Source: an archaeon
GTDB taxonomy: Archaea; Aenigmatarchaeota; Aenigmatarchaeia; GW2011-AR5
Reading direction: 5' to 3'
Assembly (NCBI GenBank): GCA_028279825.1
Contig: JANQNA010000002.1
Location: 1-64,000, forward strand
Length of the DNA: 64,000 nt
A program made the translations under genes and the position numbers. Of the stretch, positions 3,038 through 27,520 are shown piece by piece; position 1 is the stretch's first letter; every line of letters begins with the position of its first letter. The notes beneath the pieces are model-generated. The model was not told where the DNA came from, did not search any database, and worked only from the letters and a program-made list of their open reading frames with translations.

Positions 3038-3045
3038 TATTTAAA
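3038..3045 (+). promoter_or_regulatory. Archaeal TATA box for the coiled-coil/HerA pair
   Basis: TATTTAAA preceded by a purine-rich BRE-like CGAAACC lies about 35 bp before the ATG at 3079, with a GAGGTAGTGA ribosome-binding region between them. Confidence 0.55.
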
Positions 3046-3078
3046 GCTTTCGGTGCTTATTACTGAGAGGTAGTGACT

Positions 3079-3621
3079 ATGTATAAGAAAGACGATTATA
3101 GAGAAAGGAAAGACAACGTTTATCTGAAGGAAGACATGGATTTGCCGCAAAGACGTCCAAGGCAAAATCCCGAGGAATACGACATTGAAAAGGAGCGTGT
3201 TCGTGACAGACTGATACGCCAGACCATGCCGCATTCTGAAAATGATAAAATAGATAAACTGAAGCTAAAGGGATCAAAGGTTATAGGAAGTATATTTGAC
3301 AGGGTAAAATTCCTGGAGAGGAGAATAACCGAACTGAGCGACAGCCTGGCTCTCAGAAAGAGGCTGCATGAGGATATTGTCACAAACATAGAGAAGGACA
3401 TTGAAGACAAGAATGACATGCTTTCGTTTATTTCTGACCAGAATGAAAAGCGTAACCTGAAGATGGACGTATCCATACTTCGAAAAGAAAAGAGGCACGA
3501 ACAGCTGCAGTTCTGGAAAGACACAACTGAACTTATGACCGAGCTGCAGGACGTTACGGAACAGTTTGAAACGGAAAAGAAGATAACTTCTATTTTTGGT
3601 GATATAGATGAGAATGAATAA
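3079..3621 (+). CDS. Coiled-coil protein coupled to a HerA-type ATPase
   Basis: The 180-residue, highly charged protein is predicted from its heptad-like composition to be a long coiled coil from about residue 65 onward. The N-terminal 60 residues are rich in Arg, Asp and Pro and look disordered. No catalytic motif is visible. ATG 3079 follows GAGGTAGTGACT; GTG 3073 is an in-frame alternative. The last 14 bp overlap the start of the ATPase gene, which implies translational coupling and a possible structural partnership with it. Confidence 0.6.
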   Translation: MYKKDDYRERKDNVYLKEDMDLPQRRPRQNPEEYDIEKERVRDRLIRQTMPHSENDKIDKLKLKGSKVIGSIFDRVKFLERRITELSDSLALRKRLHEDIVTNIEKDIEDKNDMLSFISDQNEKRNLKMDVSILRKEKRHEQLQFWKDTTELMTELQDVTEQFETEKKITSIFGDIDENE

Positions 3622-5527
3622 AAGTGATTTTGTATCCGATGAGATAAAAAGACTCACACCCGTGCTGGGCAGGGATGTAGCTGCCAGGTTAGCAAGGACC
3701 TATCTGATGGGTGATGAGACCTCTAAGGAAAGGATAATGGAGATGATTGACGTTGTCAAAGCTTCAGTCATGTCAGATAGCGATCTCAAGGATACGGCTC
3801 TGATGGAACCTCCTGAATTCTCAAAGGGTGACATTATGCTTGGTGACGTTTTATACGGAAGAAAGAAGATGTCAAAGCTGAAAATAACCAAAGAACAGCT
3901 GCTTACACACGTAGGTATATTCGGTTCTTCCGGCTACGGTAAAACAAATCTTTCGCTTGCCATGGTGAAACAGCTTTCAGAACAGAATGTTCCCGTGATT
4001 ATATTTGACTTCTCTAAAAGGAACTATAGAGATCTTGATATGGGCGATGTCTATACTATCGGCAGGGATGTAGCCCCGTTCAGGTTTAATCCGCTTAAGC
4101 CTCCCACAGGGACGGACAGGTCCCAGTGGATAAAGGAATTTGCGTCCGTATTTGACCACGCATACTGGCTGCTTGGCGGCGGACAGCATATAATCCTGAA
4201 AGCCATGAAGGAACTGTATAATGAAAAGAAAACACCTAGAATGGGTGACCTGAAGGAAAAACTGGAAAATTATAATTCCGGAACTTCCAGAGAGAAGAAC
4301 TGGCTGTCAACGGCAATGAGACCATTAGAGTCTTTGGAACTGGACGGTGTGAGAGAGGTCTTTGACTGTGAATCAGGGATAAAGCCTTCTGACCTGCTTG
4401 TTCCGGGTAAAATTACAATACTTGAACTGGATGCCTTGTCAACAAACGACAGGACGTTTTTCATAGAAATATTTCTGCAATGGTTAAGGGACCATTTACT
4501 GGTAAACGGCCAGAGAGAAGAACTTTCAGCGGTTGTGCTGATAGAAGAAGCTCATCATATCCTGAACAGAGAGAAGCTGAAGAAACTTGGTGCTGAGACG
4601 GTCATGGATACAATATTCCGTGAAATTCGTGAATTAGGCGTTGGCATAATTTATTCAGACCAGCATCCTTCACTTGTTAGTTATCCTGCTTTGGGTAATA
4701 CTTCCATGCAGATCTACATGAACCTTGGCCTGGATTCAAAGTATTCTTCGGATATTCAGGATGCTGCAAACATGTTAGCTCTGGAAGACGATAAAGACTA
4801 TATGCGTAGATTGCCGGTTGGCCACGGGTTTGTCTTGATACGTAACAGCGAGTTTCCGTTTACTTTCCTTGCTGAATTCGACAAAATAGACATGAAAAAG
4901 GGTTCTATAAGGGATGAACAGATAAGGGAAAAAATGAAAGGCAAGACTAATTACAAATATTCAGAAGTAGAGCCATTTACAGGACATTTAGACAAACAGT
5001 CGGAAAAACTTCTGAAATCGATAGGATCCGGAAAGGGCGTGACTACATCACAACTGTATAAATCAGTTAGAATGTCGGGAACTACTTTCAACCATTATCT
5101 GGCTAAATTGCAGAAAGCGGGTCTTGTGGATACAAAAGAGATAAAGAGCGGCAGAGTGAGGACAAAATTGTGCTTTTTGACGAAATTAGGCGAGAAAACC
5201 GTCGGATCCAAGAAATTTTCCGGAGATCTGGAAATGAATGACGTTGCCAATATCTTTAGAGACGGCGGATGGGACGTAAATCGCAGAGAAAACTACCTTT
5301 TACTACGAAGGAATGGTGAAGAAATTTGTGTTTATATACTTAACGGTCAAAATAGGATGGAGATTGACGCTGCAATTGCGTCCGGGAGCCATTACATTTG
5401 TGCTACAGACGAAGTGCGCAACGTGCTGGTGCAGCAGGCTGCGCGCAAGAAAGAAGGCATGCTGATATATGCAGCAACCCTTGACAGCTTCAAACAGTCA
5501 GGCGGATTCGAGGCTGTACGACTATAG
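3608..5527 (+). CDS. HerA/DUF87-family ATPase with C-terminal winged helix
   Basis: The 639-residue protein has a Walker A motif GSSGYGKT at residues 106-113, a following FDFSKRNYRDL strand typical of HerA/VirB4-like pumps, and a Walker B AVVLIEEAHH at 308-317. Residues about 450-530 look like a winged helix (TTSQLYKSVRMSGTTFNHYL). The last ~100 residues may be a restriction-endonuclease-like or sensor domain. Such ATPases move DNA or protein along membranes or assist end resection; there is no NurA nearby, so this is probably an orphan type paired with the coiled-coil protein. It is the last gene before the composition change. Confidence 0.75.
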   Translation: MRMNKSDFVSDEIKRLTPVLGRDVAARLARTYLMGDETSKERIMEMIDVVKASVMSDSDLKDTALMEPPEFSKGDIMLGDVLYGRKKMSKLKITKEQLLTHVGIFGSSGYGKTNLSLAMVKQLSEQNVPVIIFDFSKRNYRDLDMGDVYTIGRDVAPFRFNPLKPPTGTDRSQWIKEFASVFDHAYWLLGGGQHIILKAMKELYNEKKTPRMGDLKEKLENYNSGTSREKNWLSTAMRPLESLELDGVREVFDCESGIKPSDLLVPGKITILELDALSTNDRTFFIEIFLQWLRDHLLVNGQREELSAVVLIEEAHHILNREKLKKLGAETVMDTIFREIRELGVGIIYSDQHPSLVSYPALGNTSMQIYMNLGLDSKYSSDIQDAANMLALEDDKDYMRRLPVGHGFVLIRNSEFPFTFLAEFDKIDMKKGSIRDEQIREKMKGKTNYKYSEVEPFTGHLDKQSEKLLKSIGSGKGVTTSQLYKSVRMSGTTFNHYLAKLQKAGLVDTKEIKSGRVRTKLCFLTKLGEKTVGSKKFSGDLEMNDVANIFRDGGWDVNRRENYLLLRRNGEEICVYILNGQNRMEIDAAIASGSHYICATDEVRNVLVQQAARKKEGMLIYAATLDSFKQSGGFEAVRL

Positions 5528-5827
5528 TCATATTACGTTCATGTTAACCCATAAACAAAAAGAAAAGTTACAACCGTGATGGAATGTAACTAAATTCATT
5601 AATGCAGGAATGCAGAATGCATTCATAACTCAGGACAGGTAGAGGATTTGTGAAAAATCCTCCAATCCATACGTCCAGGGCTGCTTCTAGGAATCTAGCT
5701 AAGGCTCGATTCCTGAAAAGAAATTCGGTCTTTCGTTTGTCTTCCGTTGACTTTCGTCAATGATAGAGGTAGAAATAACCCGAAACCCGAAATGGTTCCA
5801 ACAGGGAACCCACCCGAGAGGAAAGAC
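5528..5827. other. Left junction of the foreign insert
   Basis: The 300-bp gap holds an AT-rich part with the hairpin GTTACA/TGTAAC (5568-5590) and a second hairpin GAGGATTT/AAATCCTC (5652-5673). Base composition shifts toward the G+C-richer insert at about 5650-5750. No tRNA remnant, integrase gene or long repeat is visible here. A relaxed CCCGAAACCCGAAA leader precedes the first insert gene. Confidence 0.5.
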
Positions 5828-6001
5828 ATGACTAATGTCTATGACGTTCTCGCACGTCACCAAGAAACCGAGACGGAACTCGCTCGCGCCCGACAGGATC
5901 ACAAACGGTTGTTGGATGCTGCCAGAGAGACTGGAACAGCCTTGAGAATGGCCAAGGCCAAGCACCAAATGGCGACCCAAGCTCTCCGACAAGGCAGTTA
6001 A
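5828..6001 (+). CDS. Small helical protein, unknown
   Basis: The 57-residue product is almost entirely amphipathic helix (repeated E/A/R-rich heptads) and probably forms a coiled coil. ATG 5828 follows GAGAGGAAAGAC; the open frame extends upstream but has no ribosome-binding site there. It is the first gene of the insert and is followed by the first hairpin-plus-octamer cassette. No family recognised. Confidence 0.6.
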   Translation: MTNVYDVLARHQETETELARARQDHKRLLDAARETGTALRMAKAKHQMATQALRQGS

Positions 6002-6013
6002 GGGTGACCCAAA

Positions 6014-6054
6014 GGGCCGGTGGCTGCAGTAATATACCACCGCCCCGCACTCAT
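6014..6054 (+). terminator. Cassette hairpin plus GCACTCAT
   Basis: GGGCCGGTGG pairs with CCACCGCCCC and is followed directly by GCACTCAT, the octamer shared by most insert intergenic regions. Confidence 0.6.
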
Positions 6055-6110
6055 ATGAGCTCTTCGAAAAAGCTCAACCAAAATTCATCCATACACGAAC
6101 ACGACGCAAA
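6047..6110 (+). repeat. Long intergenic repeat, copy 1
   Basis: About 60 bp nearly identical to copies at 7755-7817 and 20238-20300. It contains an inverted repeat around TCGAAAAAGCTC and the run CATACACGAACACGAC, and ends in the A-rich leader of the next gene. Confidence 0.8.
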
Positions 6111-6141
6111 GAACCCAAAACCCAAAAACGGAGAAAGAACG

Positions 6142-6645
6142 ATGACACTGTCTCAAGAGCAGAGTAGAGAAGTTGAGGGAACGGTACGCGTATGGATCGC
6201 AAACAGGCTGCGCGTTGATCCCACCGATGAACGGGTGAAGCGGATCGCTCTTGCGGTGGCTCAGGATGCTTCCAATGAGGAAAGTGTACCGCTGTTTCTG
6301 GAGAACATCTCCGGCGTGATCTCCCGCCATGAAGGAAGCCTGAAGAAACTCGAGGTGAATATCGCTAATCGAGTGTACAAACAACTCGGACAGAAGGTTA
6401 CCAACTTCGCAACCATGCTCAGGATGGTCGGCAAACCCGAGCTTGCCGAATTCATGGAAGATCCGGCCAACAAGAACAAGTCGGGTGTCAGGGAAGCTCT
6501 TGCCGAACTCCAAGAGCTCCGGAGGAAGCATCCTGAGGAGCAGGCGCTGAGTCTGCTTGTCGGGTTCCTTGAGCTGGGCCTGGCGACGGCCAACGGCGAA
6601 CACGTTGCGGCGACCAGAAGACTCGTCGAGGCCCTTGGCTCGTAA
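6142..6645 (+). CDS. Helical cytosolic protein, unknown
   Basis: The 167-residue product is soluble and helix-rich, with no signal peptide or membrane segment. ATG 6142 is set by the leader CCCAAAAACGGAGAAAG ending 5 bp upstream; the longer open frame from 6004 would read through the hairpin and repeat. The C-terminal half (from about residue 110) is Leu/Glu/Ala-rich like helical repeat folds. No family recognised. It is a single-gene cassette bounded by hairpins on both sides. Confidence 0.7.
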   Translation: MTLSQEQSREVEGTVRVWIANRLRVDPTDERVKRIALAVAQDASNEESVPLFLENISGVISRHEGSLKKLEVNIANRVYKQLGQKVTNFATMLRMVGKPELAEFMEDPANKNKSGVREALAELQELRRKHPEEQALSLLVGFLELGLATANGEHVAATRRLVEALGS

Positions 6646-6652
6646 TCCACAA

Positions 6653-6685
6653 GGCACGGTGCGTCTTCCCGTGCCACGCAATAAT
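6653..6685 (+). terminator. Cassette hairpin plus GCAATAAT
   Basis: GGCACGG pairs with CCGTGCC over a TGCGTCTTC loop; ACGCAATAAT follows in place of a U-tract. Confidence 0.65.
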
Positions 6686-6742
6686 TCATATTCATAAACG
6701 TAAACGACGCAAACCCAAAACCCAAAAACGGAGAAAGAGAAA

Positions 6743-7411
6743 ATGTCGAGGAATCAAGAGAGTTCGCGAAGCCGTTCTGAGAAGAAAGGCCTGAGCTTGT
6801 CACTTCGTCGCCGCCACGTGAAACAAGACACGTTGGGCGATAGGATCGGCATGATCATGCCGGCATTTGCATTGCTCTGCGTGGTCGTCTACGCCGGGAT
6901 CACCTGGGGACCTCAGACTGTCCAGACTGTAAAGTCAAGCTACGAGCAGTGGCAGACCGAAAATGAACTCGCAGAGCAACAGGGCAGTCGCTGCGATGGA
7001 GTGTTCGACGTCGAGCTGATCAACGAGGAGACCATGTTCGACGACGGGAAGGCGACTTTCCGTTTCGACCCGATCGACCGCTACGCGTGGAAGGGATTCT
7101 ACCTTGCGGTCTACGACGGATCGCAAGAGATCGGTGAACAGAAACTCCTTGCCAAGAGCACCGGCGAATTCGCCTACCATCGTGGACGAATGTCCACTCT
7201 AGGATCGTCTCTCGCCACAGTGGAGCTGCCTGCTGGCGACAGCTGCTACTATCTCCATGTCGTCACTGGTTGTGGGACAGCCGCTCATAATCTTAATGGA
7301 GGTGACTACTTCGGCAACGAGTACTTCAGGAAGGCGTTCAACCTCAAGACCGCCGGCTGCTTCGTCTCGACGGAGGATCAGAAAACGTCGATGGCCCACT
7401 GGCTCAACTAG
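6743..7411 (+). CDS. Membrane-anchored exported protein with the CG/GGDY domain
   Basis: The 222-residue protein has a basic cytosolic tail of about 35 residues, one transmembrane helix (about 36-55), then an extracytoplasmic domain. That domain contains SCYYLHVVTGCG, GGDYFGNEYFRKAF and a closing KTAGC. The same order of motifs is found in the three lipoproteins at 13438, 14604 and 16062, so these four are paralogs with probable disulfides. The leader CCCAAAAACGGAGAAAG places the start at 6743. Function unknown. Confidence 0.7.
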   Translation: MSRNQESSRSRSEKKGLSLSLRRRHVKQDTLGDRIGMIMPAFALLCVVVYAGITWGPQTVQTVKSSYEQWQTENELAEQQGSRCDGVFDVELINEETMFDDGKATFRFDPIDRYAWKGFYLAVYDGSQEIGEQKLLAKSTGEFAYHRGRMSTLGSSLATVELPAGDSCYYLHVVTGCGTAAHNLNGGDYFGNEYFRKAFNLKTAGCFVSTEDQKTSMAHWLN

Positions 7412-7420
7412 TTCCTCAAA

Positions 7421-7453
7421 GGATGTGGAGCGCATCCCACATCCCGTAATAAT
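7421..7453 (+). terminator. Cassette hairpin plus GTAATAAT
   Basis: GGATGTGG pairs with CCACATCC over AGCGCATC and is followed by a one-base variant of the octamer. Confidence 0.65.
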
Positions 7454-7508
7454 ACTGAATCATAAGAACACGTAGTAAAACCCAAAACCCAAAAACGGAG
7501 AAAGAACA

Positions 7509-7715
7509 ATGAGAAGGCACTTCAAGAGACCGGAACAACCGACTCATGTTCACACGAAAGATGAACTGACGCCGAATCAGATCATGGATTTGTGTGGACC
7601 CTTCCCGGTATCCCATGTGGATCCCTTCGCCACGGGCAAGCCGCAGCGCAGGCACCGGCGGAACAGGAACCAACGCGAGGAGTTGCTCGATCTAAGGGAC
7701 GCCCGAGGCTACTGA
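7509..7715 (+). CDS. Small basic protein, unknown
   Basis: The 68-residue product is rich in Arg, His and Pro, with a strongly basic patch (RRHRRNRNQR) near residue 50 and no membrane segment. The leader CCCAAAAACGGAGAAAG ends 5 bp before the ATG, and a hairpin cassette closes the gene, which is the main reason to call it. It could bind nucleic acid, but no fold is recognised. Confidence 0.6.
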   Translation: MRRHFKRPEQPTHVHTKDELTPNQIMDLCGPFPVSHVDPFATGKPQRRHRRNRNQREELLDLRDARGY

Positions 7716-7729
7716 TCCAACTTTCGAAA

Positions 7730-7762
7730 GGACGTGGAGCGCATCCCACGTCCTGCACTCAT
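7730..7762 (+). terminator. Cassette hairpin plus GCACTCAT
   Basis: GGACGTGG pairs with CCACGTCC over AGCGCATC; the loop is identical to that of the preceding hairpin at 7421. Confidence 0.65.
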
Positions 7763-7817
7763 ATGAGCTTTTCGAAAAAGCTCAACCAAAATTCATCCAT
7801 ACACGAACACGACACAA
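7755..7817 (+). repeat. Long intergenic repeat, copy 2
   Basis: Matches the 6047 copy almost base for base and contains the perfect inverted repeat GAGCTTTTCGAAAAAGCTC. Confidence 0.8.
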
Positions 7818-7847
7818 AACCCTAAACCCAAAAACGGAGAAAGAGAA

Positions 7848-8159
7848 ATGTTTGGTTTCGAGATTTTCGAGGTACTTATCGGCCACTTCATGCTGGACGT
7901 GGTCGGTATCAAGATCGAGACAGCCCTGGTTGTCATCGAGACGATCGCCAAGATCGTCCCCATCAGTGCGGCTCTTTGTGCCGCCTCTGCTGTCGTTCTC
8001 TGGTATCAGAGCAAAGTACTCAGGGTACCTGAAGAGAAGTGGTCTTTCGGAAGAGTAGCGACTGCCATCACGAGCCTATCGTTCGGGCTGCTACTGTCGA
8101 TCGGCTATTTCTTCCAAGCTCCGGTCACGGTACATTGGATCCGTTCTCTCTTCGGCTGA
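7848..8159 (+). CDS. Small membrane protein, three hydrophobic segments
   Basis: The 103-residue product has hydrophobic segments at about residues 10-27, 35-52 and 70-95, with a short charged loop (KVLRVPEEKWSFGR) between the second and third. ATG 7848 follows a CCCAAAAACGGAGAAAG leader. It could be read as a holin-like or small integral membrane protein, but no family-specific motif supports that. Confidence 0.65.
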   Translation: MFGFEIFEVLIGHFMLDVVGIKIETALVVIETIAKIVPISAALCAASAVVLWYQSKVLRVPEEKWSFGRVATAITSLSFGLLLSIGYFFQAPVTVHWIRSLFG

Positions 8160-8167
8160 GCAGCCAA

Positions 8168-8210
8168 GGGTGTGATTGAACTAAGAATTCAGTCACGCCC
8201 ACGCACTAAT
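8168..8210 (+). terminator. Cassette hairpin plus GCACTAAT
   Basis: GGGTGTGA pairs with TCACGCCC (one G-U) around an inner TTGAA/TTCAG helix; ACGCACTAAT follows. Confidence 0.6.
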
Positions 8211-8220
8211 AAAGTTCTGC

Positions 8221-8624
8221 GGTCGCGCAGTGGACAGGTTCCTGTTTTCTCGCCGTGGCTAAACCCCGCCAAGCCCAGAACGGAACCGAGAACTTTTTAG
8301 GGGGTATCCCAGGTTCTCTCGTCTGCTGCGCGTCCTCCAATTTCAAACGGGAACTCACCGGGCTGAGTGACAGGCAGACAATCCGAAGTCTAATGCGTGC
8401 ATCAGCGATAACGCGTCCACGCGACGACTGACTTGCGGATTAAGAAGAACCTTGACAAAACAGGATCTCTGTGCTCTGCGTAAGACGAGTACGTCTGTCT
8501 GGAACAGGTTAACGCCCAATCACCTGGATTAGTTCCCGACCAGTTCTGTGTGTCTGCCGGGTTCATGCGTCCCAGTGTTTTTCCGGGGGAGGACATTGGG
8601 ATACCCTCCTAATGGACCCGGCAG
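8221..8624 (+). ncRNA. Large multi-domain structured RNA candidate
   Basis: About 400 bp with no convincing ORF but several long helices. Domain 1 is closed by CGCGCAG (8224-8230) with CTGCGCG (8326-8332) and holds GGTTCC/GGAACC and GAGAACT/AGGTTCTC hairpins. Domain 2 pairs 8380-8390 with 8430-8441 over 11 bp and contains CGCGTCCACGCG. Domain 3 pairs CTGCCGGGTTCAT (8554-8566) with ATGGACCCGGCAG (8612-8624) and encloses CCCAGTGT/ACATTGGG. GGAGG 8588-8592 could pair with CCTCC 8605-8609 as a pseudoknot. It does not match RNase P or tmRNA signatures I know. The pairing is seen; expression is inferred. Confidence 0.6.
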
Positions 8625-8649
8625 CCACTCCAACCTTACGGAGGTTGAC

Positions 8650-8742
8650 ATGGAGGTAAAAGCGAAACCGTTGACACTTGCTGAGGTGATCATCATGGCA
8701 GTTTTGCTTGTGGGAACTTTCGTGATGATGTCGTTCTACTAA
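8650..8742 (+). CDS. Thirty-residue single-helix membrane peptide
   Basis: A short ORF starts at ATG 8650, 5 bp after a strong ACGGAGG site. The peptide has a polar N-terminus (MEVKAKPLT) and one hydrophobic helix ending MMSFY. It directly follows the structured RNA, whose 3' helix ends 25 bp upstream, so the RNA may be its leader. It is then closed by a cassette hairpin. Confidence 0.55.
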   Translation: MEVKAKPLTLAEVIIMAVLLVGTFVMMSFY

Positions 8743-8747
8743 AACCA

Positions 8748-8781
8748 GAGCACAGTGTGTACTCCTGTGCTCAGCAATTAT
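8748..8781 (+). terminator. Cassette hairpin plus GCAATTAT
   Basis: GAGCACAG pairs with CTGTGCTC and is followed by AGCAATTAT. Confidence 0.6.
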
Positions 8782-8784
8782 ACA

Positions 8785-8820
8785 TGCATTCATCCCTAAC
8801 AGGATGAAGTTACATCCTGG
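8785..8820 (+). repeat. Two-hairpin element, partial copy
   Basis: TTCATCC pairs with GGATGAA as in the elements at 13302, 19316 and 24106, but the second GTTGCACC/GGTGCATG hairpin is degenerate here. Confidence 0.55.
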
Positions 8821-8831
8821 AAAACACAACA

Positions 8832-8902
8832 GGGAAGGGACATGATGTTTGTACACACCCCCCCCCACGGACCTCGTGTCCCTTCCCGTGGTTCGCACTC
8901 AT
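8832..8902 (+). terminator. Eleven-bp cassette hairpin with a poly-C loop, plus GCACTCAT
   Basis: GGGAAGGGACA pairs perfectly with TGTCCCTTCCC. The long loop contains an uninterrupted C run. GCACTCAT follows. Confidence 0.65.
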
Positions 8903-8941
8903 TCGTAAACGACGTCAAACCCAAAAACGGAGAAACGAAAG

Positions 8942-9643
8942 ATGACTTGCCAAGATGAGTCCGTAAGAGAAGTCTCGGAAGGTCAAGAGATGCCCCTCCA
9001 ACATAGGCTGCTTGTTGTGGCAGCCTTTTTGCTGGTTGTGATTCTTTTCGCGGTCTTCTGCCCCAAGCCTTTAAGTGCGCAGCCGATTTCTGGCACGCAC
9101 TGCGTCTTCTGGGCTGAACAGAACCTGGAATCTTCAAGGGTGCTGAACGTCTCGCTCAACAGCAACTTCGGTGCTTCTCTGAGAAACTGCTTCGATGTGG
9201 AGCTTCGTCTTGCAAGTACCGAACCGAAAGAGAAGAAGCTGGAGATCGACTACGATGCCATCGCGTTGAGGTACGGCAAGATATACGAAATTTTTCACGC
9301 CCCCGACTGGAACTATCCACTCGAATGTCAACCCTGGAACTTCTGTTTGGAGCCCGGCATTTCCACACTGAAGAACGCCATGTGGTTCTACACCAAGCAG
9401 GAGATGATTGAGGTTGGTGCAAGTCAGCTGGTCATTTCCACGAGTGATATGGAACACCGATTCCCCATCGAGATAAGAGTCCTTGGAAGTGCCGCTTCAA
9501 TTCTCCTTAACACACTGTCTGAGAGGAGGATCATCAACCCGGAGACGCAGAAGAAGGTTCGGAAGCGCGCCAAGATCATCACGGGTCTGTCCGTCGTTGC
9601 AACCATGATTGTCGTCCCGGCGGTCGTAAATATGCAACGATAA
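8942..9643 (+). CDS. Exported protein with two membrane helices, unknown
   Basis: The 233-residue protein has an N-terminal hydrophobic helix at about residues 22-42 ending near LSAQPISG, which could be a signal anchor or a cleaved signal. An extracytoplasmic domain with four cysteines follows (residues 52-140), then a C-terminal helix (about 212-230) preceded by a basic KKVRKRAK. The fold is not recognised. ATG 8942 follows CCCAAAAACGGAGAAAC. Confidence 0.65.
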   Translation: MTCQDESVREVSEGQEMPLQHRLLVVAAFLLVVILFAVFCPKPLSAQPISGTHCVFWAEQNLESSRVLNVSLNSNFGASLRNCFDVELRLASTEPKEKKLEIDYDAIALRYGKIYEIFHAPDWNYPLECQPWNFCLEPGISTLKNAMWFYTKQEMIEVGASQLVISTSDMEHRFPIEIRVLGSAASILLNTLSERRIINPETQKKVRKRAKIITGLSVVATMIVVPAVVNMQR

Positions 9644-9810: not shown

Positions 9811-10674
9811 ATGAAGTCCTACTTGAACTCAAAACCACTGACCAGAGGAGAAAAGGTGATCGTTGTCGTGGCGATCCTTCTTCTCCTGTGCTTGGCGTTT
9901 GCACCTGTGGTGATCGACAAGGTAACACTCTGGCAAGAACGCCAGGAACGCCAGGAGCTGGCCCAGGAACTCCGTAAGGACATCACGCGCCTGGTCTACA
10001 GGATGGATACCTCAGTGGGTCCTTTGGAGAACAGAAAACGCATTGACTTTTTAGACCAGAAAGTTGCGCAACTCGAGGAGCTTGGGTATTTAGTCGCGAA
10101 CTTCGGCGGGCGGCGCTGCTCGGGTTACTTCCTGCAGAAAGCTCCCTTGAACCCATTCGACTGGGAAGAATTCGACACAAGATGCAGGGATAGGTGGGGA
10201 CCTCATCCATTTCAAATCAGGGAGCACTACATCCGTGCCACCATGACCAGCAAAGAGGCGGAAGTGGACGACATCCTGGATGACATGAGGAGTGCACTCC
10301 GCCACATACGAGACCCTGAGTATGGTGAGTATTCCAGACAGGACCTGAATGAGGGCATCGAGAGATTGGAACAACTTGGATACACTGTTCGTCATTCCGG
10401 CCGCCGTTTGGTGTTCAAAAAAGGTGACATCATAGAGCGAATGCCTGATGGCAGACAGTACAACTGGTTCTTCGAGAGAAAGGTCGCAGAATTCAACGAT
10501 GAATTCCCACTGCCGGAAGAGAAGACAAGGACTCCGAGTGGTGTGCCTCCAGGAACCGGGTCCCTGATCATGTTGATCGCTGGCATCTGCTACATCTTCT
10601 CAGGAACGATCTCTAAGGCCATCACGATTCTGACCAACAAACCAGGAGCAGCTGCCGTTTTGTTCAAGAAGTAG
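9811..10674 (+). CDS. Membrane protein with an internally duplicated domain
   Basis: The 287-residue protein has a transmembrane helix after an RGEK motif (about residues 15-36) and a C-terminal helix (about 247-268). The soluble middle carries two related halves, each with a helix ending LEELGYLV or LEQLGYTV and then a GGRR or SGRR turn, which suggests an internal duplication of about 100 residues. ATG 9811 follows AAACAGGAGAAAGAAAA. The juxtamembrane GEK motif recurs in the next gene. Confidence 0.65.
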   Translation: MKSYLNSKPLTRGEKVIVVVAILLLLCLAFAPVVIDKVTLWQERQERQELAQELRKDITRLVYRMDTSVGPLENRKRIDFLDQKVAQLEELGYLVANFGGRRCSGYFLQKAPLNPFDWEEFDTRCRDRWGPHPFQIREHYIRATMTSKEAEVDDILDDMRSALRHIRDPEYGEYSRQDLNEGIERLEQLGYTVRHSGRRLVFKKGDIIERMPDGRQYNWFFERKVAEFNDEFPLPEEKTRTPSGVPPGTGSLIMLIAGICYIFSGTISKAITILTNKPGAAAVLFKK

Positions 10675-10681
10675 TCTTCAA

Positions 10682-10713
10682 GAGCGTGGCAATCGTCACG
10701 CTCATGCAATCAT
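10682..10713 (+). terminator. Cassette hairpin plus GCAATCAT
   Basis: GAGCGTG pairs with CACGCTC; ATGCAATCAT follows. Confidence 0.65.
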
Positions 10714-10770
10714 ACTTCATAAGACGTAGAACACAAACGACGTAAAAACCCTAAACAAGGAGAAAGAAGG

Positions 10771-11925: not shown

Positions 11926-12000
11926 TGGACGCACGGGATTCGAACCCTCCTTTCCGGTTGTTGCAAAACGACCGTTAACCAAATCGGATTCTGTGCGTCC
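11926..12000 (-). ncRNA. tRNA-like structure, possibly degenerate tRNA-Cys(GCA)
   Basis: On the minus strand an 8-bp acceptor-like stem GGACGCAC/GTGCGTCC encloses a D-arm-like CCG ATTTGGTTAA CGG, a GTTTTGCAAC anticodon-like loop and a GGG TTCGAAT CCC T-arm. It is not a standard cloverleaf: about three extra bases precede the D-stem, the anticodon stem has a mismatch, and the T-stem has only three clear pairs. No CCA is encoded. All neighbouring genes run on the opposite strand. It could be a decayed tRNA, a phage-type tRNA or a processing signal. Confidence 0.5.
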
Positions 12001-12055
12001 GCCAACTGACTAATAAGACGTACCAAACCCAAAACCCTAAACAGGAGAAAGAAAG

Positions 12056-13437: not shown

Positions 13438-14391
13438 ATGAGTAAGAAGTTCTGGACCATCACTTCGGCGATTGCCATTTCGTCGCTGACTTTCTGGGCG
13501 TGCGACGGCGACACCGGGATGTCACCATCGCGAGTCGAGACTCCGGTTGCGGTGGACACGGCCGCAGTGCCTGACGGAACGGTCACGGCCCAGTCGGTCA
13601 TGTGCGAGAACCGGTTCACGGCCACGCCGCTCGAACGCCTGGATCCTATCGAGGGTGACTCGGTCAGGTTCAAGTTCGAGCGTGACGACGATCGCTGGAT
13701 CGCCGGCGACGTGCCCGTTCACCTCGCAGGCTTCGACACCCACGGCGGCACCAGCCGGCCCGGCTCGCAAGAGATCCTGCCCGGCAGCCCCAGGGTCAAG
13801 ACGTTCAACAACCAGCCCGTGATCTACCTCAGCATCCCGATCCCGCAGGACAAGTGCTACGTTCTGCAGCTCGATTCCGCCTGCGGCGAGAAGGCGCCCA
13901 GGGACGGCGACTACGCCGGCATCGACTTCAACAAGAGCTGGACTGCGAAGACCGAGAAGTGCTTCCCGGGCCGCACGCCGAAGCCCAAGCCCACACCTGT
14001 ACCGTGCGACGACCAGGATCCCCAGTACGTGACATACGAGATGACCGAAGGCTCGGTCGTTCCGCATCACACCCATGCTGGCGGTCGCGTCAAGCACGGT
14101 GTCAGGGCTGACGCGACGGTTGCGCTTTCGGCCGGCACGTACGAGCTGAGGCTGCGTGCGTCTACCTGCTCCAGAGTCGGGCCGAGCTTCACGAACACTC
14201 ACTGCCAGACCTGGACGAAGGACAGCTGGAGGGGCACCGTCTTGTGCGAGGAGGAGATCAAGGAGGTCGGGCTGGACTACAGCTCCCCTCACAGCCACAC
14301 CAACACCAAGTACTGGTGGGTCGTCGCCAACCCGATCGACGGTGGTGTCAGGCCTACCAAGTACTTCGACATTCCACGCACCGGCTACTAG
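13438..14391 (+). CDS. Lipoprotein 1: CG/GDY domain plus His-rich PRTGY domain
   Basis: The 317-residue precursor has a lipobox ending in Cys22 (TFWAC) with Asp at +2, then DTGMSPSRVETPVAVDTAA, nearly the same as in lipoprotein 2. Residues about 55-180 form the domain shared with 6743, 14604 and 16062 (KCYVLQLDSACG, DGDYAG). After a Pro/Lys linker, residues about 200-317 form a second domain with PHHTHAGGRVKHG, HSHTNT and the terminal FDIPRTGY; this is shared with lipoprotein 3. The 3' end and following terminator are almost identical to those of 16062, so duplication was recent. Function unknown; metal binding by the histidines is a guess. Confidence 0.75.
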   Translation: MSKKFWTITSAIAISSLTFWACDGDTGMSPSRVETPVAVDTAAVPDGTVTAQSVMCENRFTATPLERLDPIEGDSVRFKFERDDDRWIAGDVPVHLAGFDTHGGTSRPGSQEILPGSPRVKTFNNQPVIYLSIPIPQDKCYVLQLDSACGEKAPRDGDYAGIDFNKSWTAKTEKCFPGRTPKPKPTPVPCDDQDPQYVTYEMTEGSVVPHHTHAGGRVKHGVRADATVALSAGTYELRLRASTCSRVGPSFTNTHCQTWTKDSWRGTVLCEEEIKEVGLDYSSPHSHTNTKYWWVVANPIDGGVRPTKYFDIPRTGY

Positions 14392-14423
14392 CCGACCAAC
14401 GGACGTGACGTAGTCTAAGTCGT

Positions 14424-14468
14424 GGGGGGAGGTGTTCCGCAAGAACACCTCTTTCCCCTCGCAATCAT
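14424..14468 (+). terminator. Cassette hairpin plus GCAATCAT
   Basis: GGGGGAGGTGTT pairs with AACACCTCTTTCCCC; the same hairpin type follows all three lipoprotein genes. Confidence 0.7.
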
Positions 14469-14534
14469 TTTCATTTCTCTAATGTAAGCTGTTCATTGGG
14501 AACAGCTGGATGAAAGAAAGGAGAAACTGAAAGT

Positions 14535-14603
14535 CATAGAACAAGTCGTCCAACAAAAACCATTCGGGCGAGTAGCTCGAATTAGCGAAGGAGTATCGAG
14601 TAG
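14535..14603 (+). promoter_or_regulatory. Shared lipoprotein 5' leader, copy 2
   Basis: AACAAGTCGTCCAACAAAAACC, then ATTCGGGCGAGTAGCTCGAAT and a GAAGGAG site. The CGAGTAGCTCG hairpin is clearest in this copy. A GGAGAAACTGAAAG site at 14519 has no start codon after it. Confidence 0.6.
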
Positions 14604-15557
14604 ATGATGAAGTCCACGAAATGGACGGCAGTGCTGGTGACTATCGGTGTCCTTGGTCTTGGTGCCTGCGACAGTGACACCGGCATCAGCCCATCACAGA
14701 TCGACACCCCTGTTGCTGTCGACACGGCCGCTGCTACGGTGCCTGCTGCACCGGCAGTCGAAGCCGCACCCGCGGCAACTCCGGATCCGAACAACTCGGC
14801 CGCATCGTGCAGTGACCGCTTCACGTCGCTTCCGCAGAACTTCAGCATGGACGGCGTCGCGCCGGCGAACGGCTTGCTGAAGCTCCAGCTCAAGAAGGAT
14901 CATATCGACCCTCTCGAGCCCGTTCACGTCGCGGTGTTCGACACCCAAGGCGGTACTCTGGGCCCAGGTGATCAGATCAAGCTCTTCCACAAGACGAGGA
15001 CGTTCGACAACCAACCGGTTCTACACCTCAACCTGCAACTGCCCGACGACTGTCGCGAGGTCCAGATCGACACCGGCTGCGGCGAGAATCCTCCGCGGGG
15101 CGGCAAGTACACCCATGAGCTCAACGACTACTGGAATGTTCGCACTGACGCCTGCGTGGTGGGACGAGAGCCCAAGCCCAAGGGCTGCGACATGGAGGTC
15201 ATCAAGTCGGCCCGCCGCTCTGGACCTTACATCAGGTACAGGATCGACTTCAAGAACGTCGGCGATGATGACTGCACCGGTGGCGGGGTGAAGGTCAGTG
15301 ACCGCATCCCGAAGGGAACATACTACATCGGCGGAAGCCACTGGGAGCAGGGCGACGGCAACTACGTCCAGAGCTGTCACACCGGCAAGTGCAAGTGGAA
15401 CTACGGCACCATGGAGCCCGGCGAGGAAGGTGCCGTTGGTTTCAAGGTCAAGCTGCGACGATGCCAGAGCAGCGTCACCAACACGGTCAATGTCTGGAGC
15501 AGGGAGCAGGGCAACGTCCAGGCTTCAGTCACAACCAACCTGCAGTGCGGCGACTAG
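14604..15557 (+). CDS. Lipoprotein 2: CG/GDY domain plus DUF11-like domain
   Basis: The 317-residue precursor has Cys22 (GLGAC) with Asp at +2 and a DTGISPSQIDTPVAVDTAA segment, followed by an Ala/Pro linker. Residues about 70-185 carry the shared domain (ECR-type variant DCREVQIDTGCG). The C-terminal ~115 residues look like a DUF11 repeat: YRIDFKNVGDDDC, then VKVSDRIPKGTYYI and a later WNYGTMEPGE. It therefore differs from lipoproteins 1 and 3, whose C-terminal domain is the His-rich PRTGY type. ATG 14607 is an equivalent start. Confidence 0.75.
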   Translation: MMKSTKWTAVLVTIGVLGLGACDSDTGISPSQIDTPVAVDTAAATVPAAPAVEAAPAATPDPNNSAASCSDRFTSLPQNFSMDGVAPANGLLKLQLKKDHIDPLEPVHVAVFDTQGGTLGPGDQIKLFHKTRTFDNQPVLHLNLQLPDDCREVQIDTGCGENPPRGGKYTHELNDYWNVRTDACVVGREPKPKGCDMEVIKSARRSGPYIRYRIDFKNVGDDDCTGGGVKVSDRIPKGTYYIGGSHWEQGDGNYVQSCHTGKCKWNYGTMEPGEEGAVGFKVKLRRCQSSVTNTVNVWSREQGNVQASVTTNLQCGD

Positions 15558-15588
15558 GCCCCAGCAGACGTAAGTCGTAAGTAGTCTT

Positions 15589-15632
15589 GGAGGGAGGTGT
15601 TTCCGTAAGAACACCTCTCTCCTTGCAATATT
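15589..15632 (+). terminator. Cassette hairpin plus GCAATATT
   Basis: GGAGGGAGGTGTT pairs with AACACCTCTCTCC, followed by a variant octamer. Confidence 0.65.
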
Positions 15633-15694
15633 ACTTGCTTTTATTCAGAGCCCGAGGACGTAAGGCAAGTCGTAAACTGCAGAAGGGGGTAGTG

Positions 15695-15919
15695 GTGAAA
15701 GCGGTTGGTGATGTGTGTTTTGTTGTTCTTCCTGAGGAAGCCTGTGCCACCATTGATGCACTTTCCGACACACTCGAGGAAGAAGAAGTACGACATGCAC
15801 AGGGTGAGTTGACCATGCAGGAGTTCCTTGTCCTACGCGGTGAACTCTTTTCAATCGCTGACGGGGCTAGGGCGGCTGAACTGGCCGAGCTAAACAGGAG
15901 ATGTACAGACCGGAAGTAA
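15695..15919 (+). CDS. Small acidic helical protein
   Basis: The 74-residue product starts at GTG 15695 (or GTG 15692) after AGAAGGGGG; the longer open frame would overlap the previous terminator. It has a short beta-like start (VGDVCFVVLP) and a strongly helical, Glu/Ala-rich body. It lies between lipoproteins 2 and 3 in its own hairpin-bounded cassette. Unknown family. Confidence 0.5.
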   Translation: MKAVGDVCFVVLPEEACATIDALSDTLEEEEVRHAQGELTMQEFLVLRGELFSIADGARAAELAELNRRCTDRK

Positions 15920-15939
15920 AAAAGTACAACCTACCGGAC

Positions 15940-15969
15940 GGGAGAACAATTGTTCTCCCTAGCAATTAT
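15940..15969 (+). terminator. Twenty-base perfect palindrome plus GCAATTAT
   Basis: GGGAGAACAATTGTTCTCCC is a perfect palindrome and could equally be a protein-binding operator. CTAGCAATTAT follows. Confidence 0.6.
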
Positions 15970-16003
15970 TTTCGTGAAATCGTAAGGAAAGGAGGAAGGA
16001 CGT

Positions 16004-16061
16004 AAAAACAAGTCGTTCAACCCATAACTTTCGGGCGAGGTTCCGAAAAAGGAGGACGTAA
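16004..16061 (+). promoter_or_regulatory. Shared lipoprotein 5' leader, copy 3
   Basis: AACAAGTCGTTCAACCC, then ACTTTCGGGCGAGGTTCCGAA and an AAAGGAGG site 7 bp before ATG 16062. A second GGAGG at 15990 has no start codon. Confidence 0.6.
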
Positions 16062-17507
16062 ATGAGTAGGTACAAGTGGCTGATCGCTCTGGCGATCGTT
16101 GTTCTGCCGTTGAGTTTCTGGGCCTGCGACAACGCTGGTACACCCGGCCCATCGCCAGTCGAAGAACCCGTGGCCGTGCAGACCGCACCGGCTACTCCGG
16201 CCACACCCACACCCCCGGCCCAGGCCACGCCTGAGCCGACTCCACAAGCCTTGGCTGCTTGCGAAGATCAATACACGGCCGTTCCCCTGAACTTCGACAA
16301 CATGACGACCGTTCCCAACGGCGCTACGTTGCGTGTTCGCTTCGATCGGAAGAACGTCCCGTCCGATCACCCGGTTCACGTTGCGTGGTTCGACGAGACC
16401 GGCGGCAAGAAGCCCGGCGAACAGGATCTGGTTGACAAGAAGGTCAAGACGTTCAGCAACTCGAACGAGCTTTTCTTCAACCACATCCAACTGCCTGACG
16501 ACGACGAGTGCCGCGAGTTCCAGATCGACGCCGGCTGCGGTGACAAGATTCCGGACGGCGGCAACTACGGTATCGATGCACGCGGAATGTTCAACAAGGC
16601 CTGGCACGTGCGCACCGACAAGTGTGTGCCGCCTCCGCCAACACCGACGCCGCCTCCGTGCGCCGATTCGTTCCTGTCTCACAACGCGGTCACCGACGAC
16701 TGCTCCGTGTGCATCAACGTCAATTCATCGCATCCGGGCACTGGCACGGTTTCCGACGGTGAAAGCGTTGTCCACAGCTGGGAATTCCCGGCCGGCGAGA
16801 GCCAGGAGTGCAGCGGCGAGATCGAGGAAGGCGGATCGTTCACCTACAATCTCAAGACCGAGTGCGATGACGGCCGTGGCAAGTTCGCGGTCGAATGCGA
16901 GGACAGCTGCGACAACTACGATCCTCCGCCCTTTGGCGGCAGCCTCGACCGCGAGCTGACCAAGAACAAGGCCACGTTCGACGTTGGCACAACTCCGCAG
17001 GCCTGCGTCTGGGATCCTTCGCTGCCGAAGACGTACAACCGTCCCGACTACGGTGATCCCACCAAGCACGTCAGCTTCACGTGCACCCAGTCGTACGGAC
17101 CGCCGGAACTCGAGTGCGAGGCCAGCGGGAAGTACCCCGGCAAGGTGCCGCCGAAGAAGCCGACCTGCGAGGACCTCAACCCGCCGTACAACACCTACAA
17201 GATGACCTCGGGCAGCGTGAAGCCGCATCACTACCATGGAAGCACCCCTCACGGTGTCAAGGCCAACGTGACGGTTCTTCTCAAGAACGGCACGTACGAG
17301 GTACGCCTGAAGGCCAAGCAGGGCCAGACCTGGACGAAGGACAGGAAGCGCGTTACCGTCTCGTGCGAAGCCGGCGCGAAGAGCGTGTCGCTGGGCTACT
17401 CCTCGTCGCATTCGCACACTAACACCGAGGAGTGGTGGGTGGAGATCGACCCGCAGGCTGGTGGTTACCCCACCGAGAAGACTGATATTCCACGCACCGG
17501 CTACTAG
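16062..17507 (+). CDS. Lipoprotein 3: three-domain exported protein ending PRTGY
   Basis: The 481-residue precursor has Cys22 (SFWAC) with Asp at +2, then a Pro/Thr/Ala linker. Residues about 66-185 carry the shared domain (ECREFQIDAGCG, GGNYG). Residues about 190-370 are a cysteine-rich region unique to this protein (SFLSHNAV... through CEASGKYPG). The C-terminal domain, about 375-481, matches lipoprotein 1: PHHYHGSTPHG, QTWTKD, HSHTNTEEWW, DIPRTGY. The run of nucleotides around the stop and terminator is nearly identical to the end of 13438. Confidence 0.75.
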   Translation: MSRYKWLIALAIVVLPLSFWACDNAGTPGPSPVEEPVAVQTAPATPATPTPPAQATPEPTPQALAACEDQYTAVPLNFDNMTTVPNGATLRVRFDRKNVPSDHPVHVAWFDETGGKKPGEQDLVDKKVKTFSNSNELFFNHIQLPDDDECREFQIDAGCGDKIPDGGNYGIDARGMFNKAWHVRTDKCVPPPPTPTPPPCADSFLSHNAVTDDCSVCINVNSSHPGTGTVSDGESVVHSWEFPAGESQECSGEIEEGGSFTYNLKTECDDGRGKFAVECEDSCDNYDPPPFGGSLDRELTKNKATFDVGTTPQACVWDPSLPKTYNRPDYGDPTKHVSFTCTQSYGPPELECEASGKYPGKVPPKKPTCEDLNPPYNTYKMTSGSVKPHHYHGSTPHGVKANVTVLLKNGTYEVRLKAKQGQTWTKDRKRVTVSCEAGAKSVSLGYSSSHSHTNTEEWWVEIDPQAGGYPTEKTDIPRTGY

Positions 17508-18507: not shown

Positions 18508-18541
18508 CCCGGGTCTGGCATAAAACCCAGGCCCGGGTTTT
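18508..18541 (+). terminator. Intrinsic terminator with U-tract, copy 1
   Basis: CCCGGGTCTGG pairs with CCAGGCCCGGG (one G-U) over CATAAAAC, then TTTT. An almost identical 35-bp copy is at 24336. Confidence 0.8.
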
Positions 18542-19119: not shown

Positions 19120-19136
19120 CACACAACCAACCGAAA

Positions 19137-19170
19137 GGGCGTGGTGTGTCTTCCCACGTCCCGCAATCAT
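19137..19170 (+). terminator. Cassette hairpin plus GCAATCAT
   Basis: GGGCGTGG pairs with CCACGTCCC (one bulge), followed by CGCAATCAT. Confidence 0.55.
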
Positions 19171-19177
19171 TCTCTAT

Positions 19178-19312
19178 GGACGTGCCAAGCTGATGAGCAA
19201 GTCAGTTCGTTTACTCTATGTTAATGAACACCATGGGTTTTGGGGTTCTTTCCCATGTAAAAAACAAAAAAGGGTTCTGGAGAAACGAATGACCTGTGTG
19301 CTTGGCGCGTCC
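19178..19312 (+). ncRNA. Long-stem structured RNA candidate, 135 nt
   Basis: The outer stem GGACGTGCCAAGC (19178-19190) pairs with GCTTGGCGCGTCC (19300-19312) over 13 bp. After an internal loop a second long helix pairs GTCAGTTCGTTTACTC with GGAGAAACGAATGAC (two bulges). The apex holds a CATGGG/CCCATG hairpin and an A-run. The boundary ATGGACG...CGTCC matches the tRNA-like element at 11926 in both position and sequence. No ORF is present. Confidence 0.65.
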
Positions 19313-19315
19313 GTC

Positions 19316-19366
19316 AGCATTCATCCCTAACAGGATGGAGTTGCACCACACACACGATGGTGCATG
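19316..19366 (+). repeat. Two-hairpin RNA element, full copy
   Basis: CATCC/GGATG hairpin, then GTTGCACCA...TGGTGCATG. It begins four bases after the structured RNA. Confidence 0.7.
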
Positions 19367-19437
19367 AACAGGGGAGAGGGGATTGGATACTTTCTCTCCA
19401 GATCCAATAACCTTGGCATGTACACGAGGATAATCCT

Positions 19438-19503
19438 ATGTGTATGTACCAGTTCGGTGTCGACGCCGTGTTCCGAGCTGCGAGCACGAGCCAGAAGGTC
19501 TGA
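19438..19503 (+). CDS. Micro-ORF, 21 residues
   Basis: ATG 19438 is 9 bp after GAGG. The predicted peptide starts MCMYQFGVDAVFRAAS and is followed by TGA. Support is weaker than for the other micro-ORFs. Confidence 0.3.
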   Translation: MCMYQFGVDAVFRAASTSQKV

Positions 19504-19767
19504 ACAACCGACAAAGGGTAAAGGAGGCAGTCTTCCTCTGACGAAGCGTAACTCGAGGTGATGTGATTTAACAGGAACTAGGCACCCCAACAAGGTGCAG
19601 GAAAATGTCCCACCCCTTAACCGGGTGCGTTGGTACATATCCAAACATACCAAGAGTCTGGTGCAAAAACGTTTTGCGCCAGCTCTCTGTCTCATAAAAA
19701 TCCGTTTTTCTTACTATACAACGAACTAGAAACCAGAAACGGTAAACCCTAAACAGGAGAAAAGGAA
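19504..19767. other. Gene-free stretch with hairpins
   Basis: It holds an AAAGGAGG at 19522 without a start codon, a GGCACC/GGTGC hairpin at 19588-19602, a related ACCCCTTAACCGGGTGCG at 19613-19631, and TTTTGCGCCAGCTCTCTGTCTCAT at 19673-19696, which mirrors 17945-17968. Then comes the AAACCCTAAACAGGAG leader. Confidence 0.5.
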
Positions 19768-22396: not shown

Positions 22397-22427
22397 ACGT
22401 ACCAATACTTCCAGGCGCGAGGCCTAA

Positions 22428-22459
22428 GGGAAGCGGAGCAACGCTTCCCACGCATTCAT
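22428..22459 (+). terminator. Cassette hairpin plus GCATTCAT
   Basis: GGGAAGC pairs with GCTTCCC; stem as at 13258 and 25875. Confidence 0.65.
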
Positions 22460-22515
22460 ACTCGTACCGGCCTCATTCACACTGTGTGAGTGTTGGCAAA
22501 AACGGGAGGTGTACC

Positions 22516-24335: not shown

Positions 24336-24370
24336 CCCGGGTCTGGCATAAAACCCAGGCCCGGGTTTTT
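24336..24370 (+). terminator. Intrinsic terminator with U-tract, copy 2
   Basis: CCCGGGTCTGG pairs with CCAGGCCCGGG over CATAAAAC, then TTTTT. Confidence 0.8.
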
Positions 24371-27126: not shown

Positions 27127-27201
27127 TATGTGTCAAATTAACGGTATATGACCGATCTTTTTCTTTGTAAAGAAAAACCTAGGTATCTCAAAAAGAAACT
27201 A

Positions 27202-27489
27202 TTATAGTCTTCGGTATTTTTTGTTCCAGAGAGAAATAGACCAGCGGGAAATTTTGTAACCTCTAAGTTTCATTTTCTGCTGGACCTCTGATAAAGAATA
27301 TCCCTGACGATGTAATTTTGCAGCACGTCTGATTTCTTTTTCCGGAAATCGTGTTTTTGGACCGGGCGTGAACTTTCTCTTGCATTTGTTACAGAGGAAC
27401 ATTTGTTTTTCTCCTGAATCATTATAACGAATTCCTCTCTTTACTATCTTGGTGCTTCTACAGAATTTGCATTTTATTTTCTTTTTCAT
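27202..27489 (-). CDS. Zinc-ribbon plus HTH protein (InsA-like N-terminal module)
   Basis: The 95-residue product has two Cys pairs, CKFC near residue 7 and CNKC near 34, forming a zinc ribbon like that of IS1-type InsA. A basic helix-turn-helix follows (EKEIRRAAKLHRQGYSLSEV). No transposase catalytic domain or terminal inverted repeat is next to it. It could be a stand-alone regulator or the remnant of a mobile element at the insert's edge. Confidence 0.65.
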   Translation of the reverse strand: MKKKIKCKFCRSTKIVKRGIRYNDSGEKQMFLCNKCKRKFTPGPKTRFPEKEIRRAAKLHRQGYSLSEVQQKMKLRGYKISRWSISLWNKKYRRL

Positions 27490-27520
27490 ATGTCAAATTA
27501 TAGGGATAGAACTTAATAAG

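Follow-up and report, generated by a model that had tools for sequence, protein, structure and literature searches.

Is the stretch between positions 8213 and 8647 of this contig a genuine structured RNA and, if so, what would such an RNA do? Throughout, the window means the whole 64,000-nt stretch of DNA that was analysed. An earlier note, made from the letters of the window, had called this block a large ornate RNA candidate, and the folding statistics bear this out on the correct strand. Indeed, positions 8200-8650 of the + strand fold at -186.5 kcal/mol, against -146.9 +/- 6.3 kcal/mol in dinucleotide shuffles (z -6.3). The trimmed span 8213-8628 reaches z -7.0, versus only -2.1 for the complementary strand, and this asymmetry points to an RNA rather than to a DNA element. 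In a composition-corrected scan of both strands, the segment holding the RNA ranked second of 850 of the same size; the first rank went to 8551-9001, which overlaps the RNA in its third domain and continues into the hairpins downstream. Samples of 100-300 shuffles were folded for the whole RNA and for single domains, and none folded as well (0 of 300 for each of the three domains). Judged by these folding statistics, a real three-domain structured RNA of approximately 410-415 nt is very likely.

The three domains, of about 120, 195 and 80 nt, and the long helices that were said to close them are present; the closing helices measure 12 (including G-U pairs), 8 and 13 bp, and their pairing probabilities are 0.99-1.0:

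8219-8338, + strand: domain 1 (z -4.84; pairing probabilities 0.83-0.99)
8224-8235/8321-8332, + strand: closing helix of domain 1, 12 bp including G-U pairs
8237-8248/8277-8287 and 8288-8295/8311-8318, + strand: branched stem and hairpin in the interior of domain 1
8346-8540, + strand: domain 2 (z -5.46; helices listed here at pairing probability 0.96-1.0)
8348-8355/8531-8538, + strand: closing helix of domain 2, 8 bp, followed by 8358-8362/8523-8527
8371-8379/8493-8501, + strand: 9-bp helix of domain 2, with inner helices 8380-8390/8430-8441 and 8471-8476/8487-8492
8550-8628, + strand: domain 3 (z -5.49; pairing probabilities 1.0 for the closing helix and 0.92 for the hairpin)
8554-8566/8612-8624, + strand: closing helix of domain 3, 13 bp
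8569-8583/8588-8602, + strand: hairpin enclosed by domain 3, 15 bp
8603-8611, + strand: single strand ACCCUCCUA of domain 3

The last domain had further been described as enclosing a hairpin plus a GGAGG/CCTCC pair capable of forming a pseudoknot. The hairpin is there; the pseudoknot is not retained. As GGAGG (8588-8592) is already part of the hairpin stem, GGAGG/CCTCC is an alternative and not an additional pairing. A longer complementarity links GGGTATCCCA (8302-8311) to TGGGATACCC (8597-8606). Scored as a contact between loop and single strand, the type of tertiary contact that was examined, it gives -10.8 kcal/mol versus a shuffle mean of -11.2 kcal/mol, with 300 of 600 shuffles at least as good. 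Since half of the shuffles match or beat this contact, the pseudoknot was dropped, neither pairing being better than shuffles.

The covariance search proposed at the outset was run against Rfam and returned no plausible family. There were zero cmscan matches at gathering thresholds, and permissive filters with E up to 10 yielded, for positions 7700-9000, just two chance matches to lncRNA models. In the absence of a cmscan match, all Rfam families were rejected, including GOLLD, ROOL, OLE, riboswitches and introns; the earlier note was thus right to assign the block to neither GOLLD nor ROOL, which were missing even from the permissive output. A tmRNA or tRNA-like identity found no match in Rfam or ARAGORN. 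No DNA homologs of the RNA were detected in phage records, plasmid records or 156 genomes of the same class, and an origin from a phage or plasmid was set aside on the lack of matches in those records. The RNA is an orphan, without an assigned family or detectable relatives, and the job of its fold is one that we infer.

GOLLD RNAs are often over 800 nt, have a conserved 3' domain and occur in phages and prophages, often near tRNA islands (PMC12286853). Like them, the RNA described here is large, multi-domain, non-coding and tied to mobile DNA, but it is about 415 nt long, lacks a cmscan match and lies in an archaeal chromosome. ROOL RNAs, with a 659-nt example, carry multiple pseudoknots, form an octamer and are found in phages and prophages (PMC12286853); both RNAs are ornate, with several closed domains and a function that is not known, whereas the present one has no model match and an unsupported pseudoknot. 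Homo-oligomeric RNA particles belong to the definition of the GOLLD, ROOL and OLE RNAs (PMC12286853). With OLE it shares the appearance of a large structured RNA of bacterial style. OLE RNA works together with a membrane protein. No cmscan match to OLE was obtained, however, and the peptide encoded next to the RNA has 30 aa and is unrelated to described families.

This peptide brings in the question of coding content. In line with the claim that the block has no coding signal, its + strand shows no ATG ORF of at least 25 aa, the 30-aa peptide excepted. Antisense ORFs of 55-76 aa are present, and a TTG codon at 8596, itself provided with a good Shine-Dalgarno sequence (SD), could serve as another start and lengthen the peptide to 48 aa, running through domain 3. 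Of the two refuting conditions named in the note, neither arose: no intact conserved ORF crosses the RNA, and no homologs were detected whose stems could lack compensatory changes. Directly downstream, where a 30-aa membrane peptide had been announced, an SD-led ORF does begin, 21 nt past the end of domain 3 (8628 to 8650):

8631-8647, + strand: predicted 7-bp hairpin CAACCUU/GAGGUUG, which takes in part of the SD of the 30-aa ORF (GGAGG, 8640-8644)
8650-8742, + strand: 30-aa membrane-peptide ORF, MEVKAKPLTLAEVIIMAVLLVGTFVMMSFY (SD energy -10.7 kcal/mol)
8748-8772, + strand: 3' hairpin GAGCACAG..CUGUGCUC, then GCAATTAT (helix probability 0.99)
8786-8835, + strand: repeated two-hairpin element GCATTCATCC..GGATGRAGTTGCA, from repeat search and direct reading

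Direct reading of 8628-8650 found no U-tract terminator between the RNA and the ORF. The RNA lies 21 nt before an SD-led ORF, no terminator comes between them, and behind the ORF stands a 3' hairpin of the type common in the surrounding gene block (hereafter the island); a cis-acting leader is the simplest way to read this arrangement. We put at roughly 40% the probability that 8213-8647 is a long structured 5' leader, co-transcribed with the 30-aa ORF and ending at hairpin 8748-8772. Leader and ORF (8650-8742) would then share one transcript, and the leader would set the amount of peptide in cis through the opening or closing of the SD hairpin, a regulatory role whose direction, too, we infer; a ligand, a protein, a small RNA or temperature are candidate triggers.

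This reading is built on the fold statistics, the strand, the SD-led ORF, the lack of an intervening terminator and the predicted SD hairpin. The latter has a mean pairing probability of 0.95 in the fold of 8200-8800. Its occlusion of the SD is weaker in local folds, where the SD of the 30-aa ORF is 24% unpaired, a moderate difference from the island's ordinary genes (median 42%). In favour of a leader, the 3' end is shaped as for other island genes: the ending at 8748-8772 has the form seen after most of them, and GCAMTMAT occurs 20 times in the forward and 0 times in the reverse direction of the island. Tiny SD-led ORFs elsewhere in the island (18396, 22516, 22832, 24222) also sit behind long non-coding stretches, and the stretch before one of them (22397-22515) is clearly structured (z -3.9); the leaders of units D and E show no significant structure (z -0.6 and -1.6). 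Uniform occlusion of the SD over all tiny ORFs was not found, the unpaired fractions being 24%, 60%, 14%, 60% and 2%. No promoter was identified for the unit, and sigma-70 promoters are not enriched in the island, with 1 sigma-70-like site between 5.5 and 18.5 kb versus 4.6 in shuffles. Against a leader stand the disproportion of 430 nt for 30 codons and the lack of a homolog, and thus of covariation. Riboswitches, RNA thermometers and attenuated leader-peptide units likewise place a structured RNA upstream of an SD-led ORF, with a predicted SD hairpin and no terminator, but the RNA here is much longer, has no riboswitch match and has no identified switch partner or ligand.

The main rival, tentative in its turn and nearly as likely as the cis-acting leader, sees here a large structured non-coding RNA that stands on its own and acts in trans or as an assembly, in the manner of the ornate RNAs known from phages and bacteria, with the 30-aa peptide as its partner or a mere neighbour. 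Three independent and very stable domains exceed what translational control needs, and similar islands in related genomes hold structured non-coding stretches too (locus L077, 10563-10739, z -4.8; locus L078, 3480-3800, z -2.9), the left-end RNA of loci L076 and L080, described below, being a further example. Against it, neither a terminator nor a conserved 3' end sets the RNA apart from the ORF; the RNA also has neither homolog nor Rfam match, and the tertiary contact examined is at chance level.

It is unlikely that the stretch is non-functional as RNA, that is, a GC-rich sequence folding by chance or a decayed coding region. The single known copy, devoid of comparative evidence, and the antisense ORFs of 55-76 aa would suit this explanation, whereas the failure of all 100-300 shuffles to equal the whole RNA or any domain, together with the second rank among 850 despite composition correction, argues against it.

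As to the setting, the RNA lies in a GC-rich gene block of an Aenigmatarchaeota (DPANN) genome, and not in a phage or on a bacterial plasmid. The main features are as follows:

3608-5527, + strand: HerA/TrwB-like ATPase (Pfam HerA central domain 6e-10, TrwB 7e-6), adjoining the left end of the island
5528-27130, + strand: GC-rich island containing the RNA, 21.6 kb, with its genes on the + strand
5590-5805, + strand: another non-coding stretch with structure, at the island's left end (z -3.10)
27131-27149, + strand: variant TGTCAAATTAACGGTATAT of the right-end motif, with a better second copy at 27491-27509
27202-27489, - strand: 95-aa zinc-ribbon/HTH-like protein (weak Pfam zinc-ribbon matches), adjoining the right end of the island

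GC content is 0.49-0.61 at 6-27 kb, whereas most of the flanking sequence has 0.38-0.47, and the median SD energy is -8.6 kcal/mol in the island versus -2.7 kcal/mol for host genes (p = 2e-7; a few island starts are offset by 1-2 nt, with a slight effect on energies). Many island genes have the leader AAACCCNAAANNNGGAGAAAG in common, with 14 near-matches in the window against 0.04 expected. The flanks are archaeal (archaeal-type AspRS, HerA), as is the DPANN host, whose closest named relatives are Candidatus Aenigmatarchaeota, archaeon GW2011_AR5 being one of them. Since the island is of bacterial style and its chromosome archaeal, the cell in which the unit acts is uncertain. The island products are ORFans: lipoproteins with a bacterial lipobox, small membrane proteins and a single protein bearing the motif of bacterial type IV pilins. 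They have no homologs in relatives, and the largest lipoprotein has none in 58 relatives or in the GTDB genome collection at the sensitivity used. The three island proteins compared with phage records and IMG/VR had no match there, the gene-leader motif gave single, scattered matches in IMG/VR, and no convincing phage hallmark gene was found among the scanned proteins. Comparing the left and right ends of the island for attachment-site repeats gave no more than an 11-base match.

Structure is not confined to the RNA. Segments at 5401-5851, at the island's left end, took ranks 3 and 4 of 850 in the fold scan, and the non-coding stretches 19120-19767 (z -5.1) and 8743-8941 (z -5.9) are structured as well. 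Further copies of the two-hairpin element lie at about 13324, at 19317 and at about 24128; four of the island's non-coding stretches thus carry the element, in the form GCATTCATCC..GGATGRAGTTGCACC..GGTGCATG. A 34-nt terminator-like hairpin (CCCGGGTCTGGCATAAAACCCAGGCCCGGGTTTT) is found in identical copies at 18508-18541 and 24336-24369, each of which follows a tiny SD-led ORF (18396 and 24222). On the - strand, 11926-12002 is tRNA-like, with a T-arm, a 7-bp acceptor stem and an irregular anticodon arm, and was called by neither ARAGORN nor Rfam. Among the proteins, three paralogous lipoproteins lie at 13438-17507, two of which share a C-terminal PRTGY, a motif also found internally in the protein at 20748.

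Comparable blocks occur at the same HerA locus in relatives, because of which an assembly chimera is unlikely. In these genomes a HerA gene is followed by the gene for the 95-aa zinc-ribbon protein that is the right neighbour of the island in the window. The interval between the two genes is taken up in L077 by a block of 8.6 kb whose genes are SD-led (-11 to -14 kcal/mol), and in L078 by just 0.65 kb of sequence that is structured and rich in hairpins. In archaeon GW2011_AR5 (AR5, L076) and in genome G002 (L080), GC-rich blocks adjoin the HerA/zinc-ribbon module, and the block downstream of it opens with a structured RNA conserved between the two (L076 14565-14945, L080 14003-14620), in which GAGTCCACGAGGACAGGAAC is identical. 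A second G002 island (L080 4300-4700) bears a shorter resemblance to this left-end RNA. The left-end RNA is preceded by TTTAAAAG, which resembles an archaeal TATA box and is common to three of seven left ends (L076, and L080 twice); over the seven, no conserved left-end motif was found beyond chance. Kinship of our RNA to the left-end RNA of AR5 (G003) and G002, suggested by the common GCGTCCACGCGA, came down to a likeness of about 15 nt, not above chance. Different islands have no proteins in common at E below 1e-3, a short match in the AR5/G002 left-end RNA region excepted. The block upstream of HerA in L080 encodes a bacterial MreB (4706-5707, E 1.5e-119) and a tubulin/FtsZ-like protein (6906-8570). 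A compact ornate RNA candidate of 177 nt lies near the right end of the L077 island (10563-10739, z -4.8), closed by GGGGUCUCAC/GUGAGACCCC; apart from its own genome, its homologs were limited to one weak 51-base match.

The right end of the island and of comparable blocks in relatives is marked by TGTCAANTTANAGGGATAT (L077 11383, L078 3938, L076 20901, L080 8678 and in genome G012), with one or two mismatches at L076 20901, L080 8678 and some others. Exact sites number 17, in 9 of 156 genomes, versus 0 for the reversed control pattern; of these loci (L092-L108), two are those of L077 and L078 again. Genes just left of the motif are mostly co-directional with it and often strongly SD-led, and their products include a pilin, HisI and PurH-like, AIR-synthase-like, phosphoribosyltransferase-like and acyl-CoA dehydrogenase-like proteins. 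How sharply the left side differs from the right varies with the locus, some showing a clear and others a weak contrast. Three species have a second copy of the motif beyond the zinc-ribbon gene, so that it could just as well serve the 95-aa protein as a site of binding or regulation.

Another unlikely explanation denies the RNA a regulatory or catalytic role and makes it a structural element of the island's DNA or transcript (a processing, transfer or packaging signal, or a recombination site): it would account for the recurrent hairpin and GCAMTMAT punctuation behind island genes, the conserved right-end motif and the adjoining gene for a HerA/TrwB-like DNA translocase, but is made improbable by the strong strand asymmetry (-7.0 versus -2.1) and by the position of the RNA 2.7 kb inside the island, at neither end.

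An orphan RNA of such size and stability is rare and points to something larger. On a reading that we regard as a long shot, the RNA would belong to an undescribed kind of Aenigmatarchaeota island, with genes on a single strand, bacterial SDs, structured RNAs, a conserved end motif and often a HerA/TrwB-like ATPase beside it; the products would comprise lipoproteins, type IV pilin, MreB, an FtsZ/tubulin-like protein and enzymes of the purine and histidine pathways. In the boldest form of this reading, the island would be delivered from the archaeon to a bacterial partner in a T-DNA-like manner and the RNA would act there. What speaks for such a partner are the bacterial signals, an island content that varies, the end motif and the adjoining ATPase; against it stand the lack of enrichment in sigma-70-like promoters and the archaeal-looking TTTAAAAG boxes at three left ends. 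Ordinary horizontal gene acquisition is a simpler cause of the islands than delivery. A limited search of open papers found nothing relevant on comparable islands of DPANN archaea.

These DPANN archaea carry discrete blocks of bacterial-style genes, with abundant structured RNA and a conserved sequence at their close. If the blocks are real functional units, they would reveal either how these archaea acquire genes from bacteria and express them or how they act on bacterial partners, two questions that can be tested by way of the motif and the islands described above. Island sequence in genome G012, on the reverse strand of L088 (about 3040-7100), comprises approximately 4 kb, GC-rich and with few or no long SD-led ORFs, and is possibly a large non-coding region.
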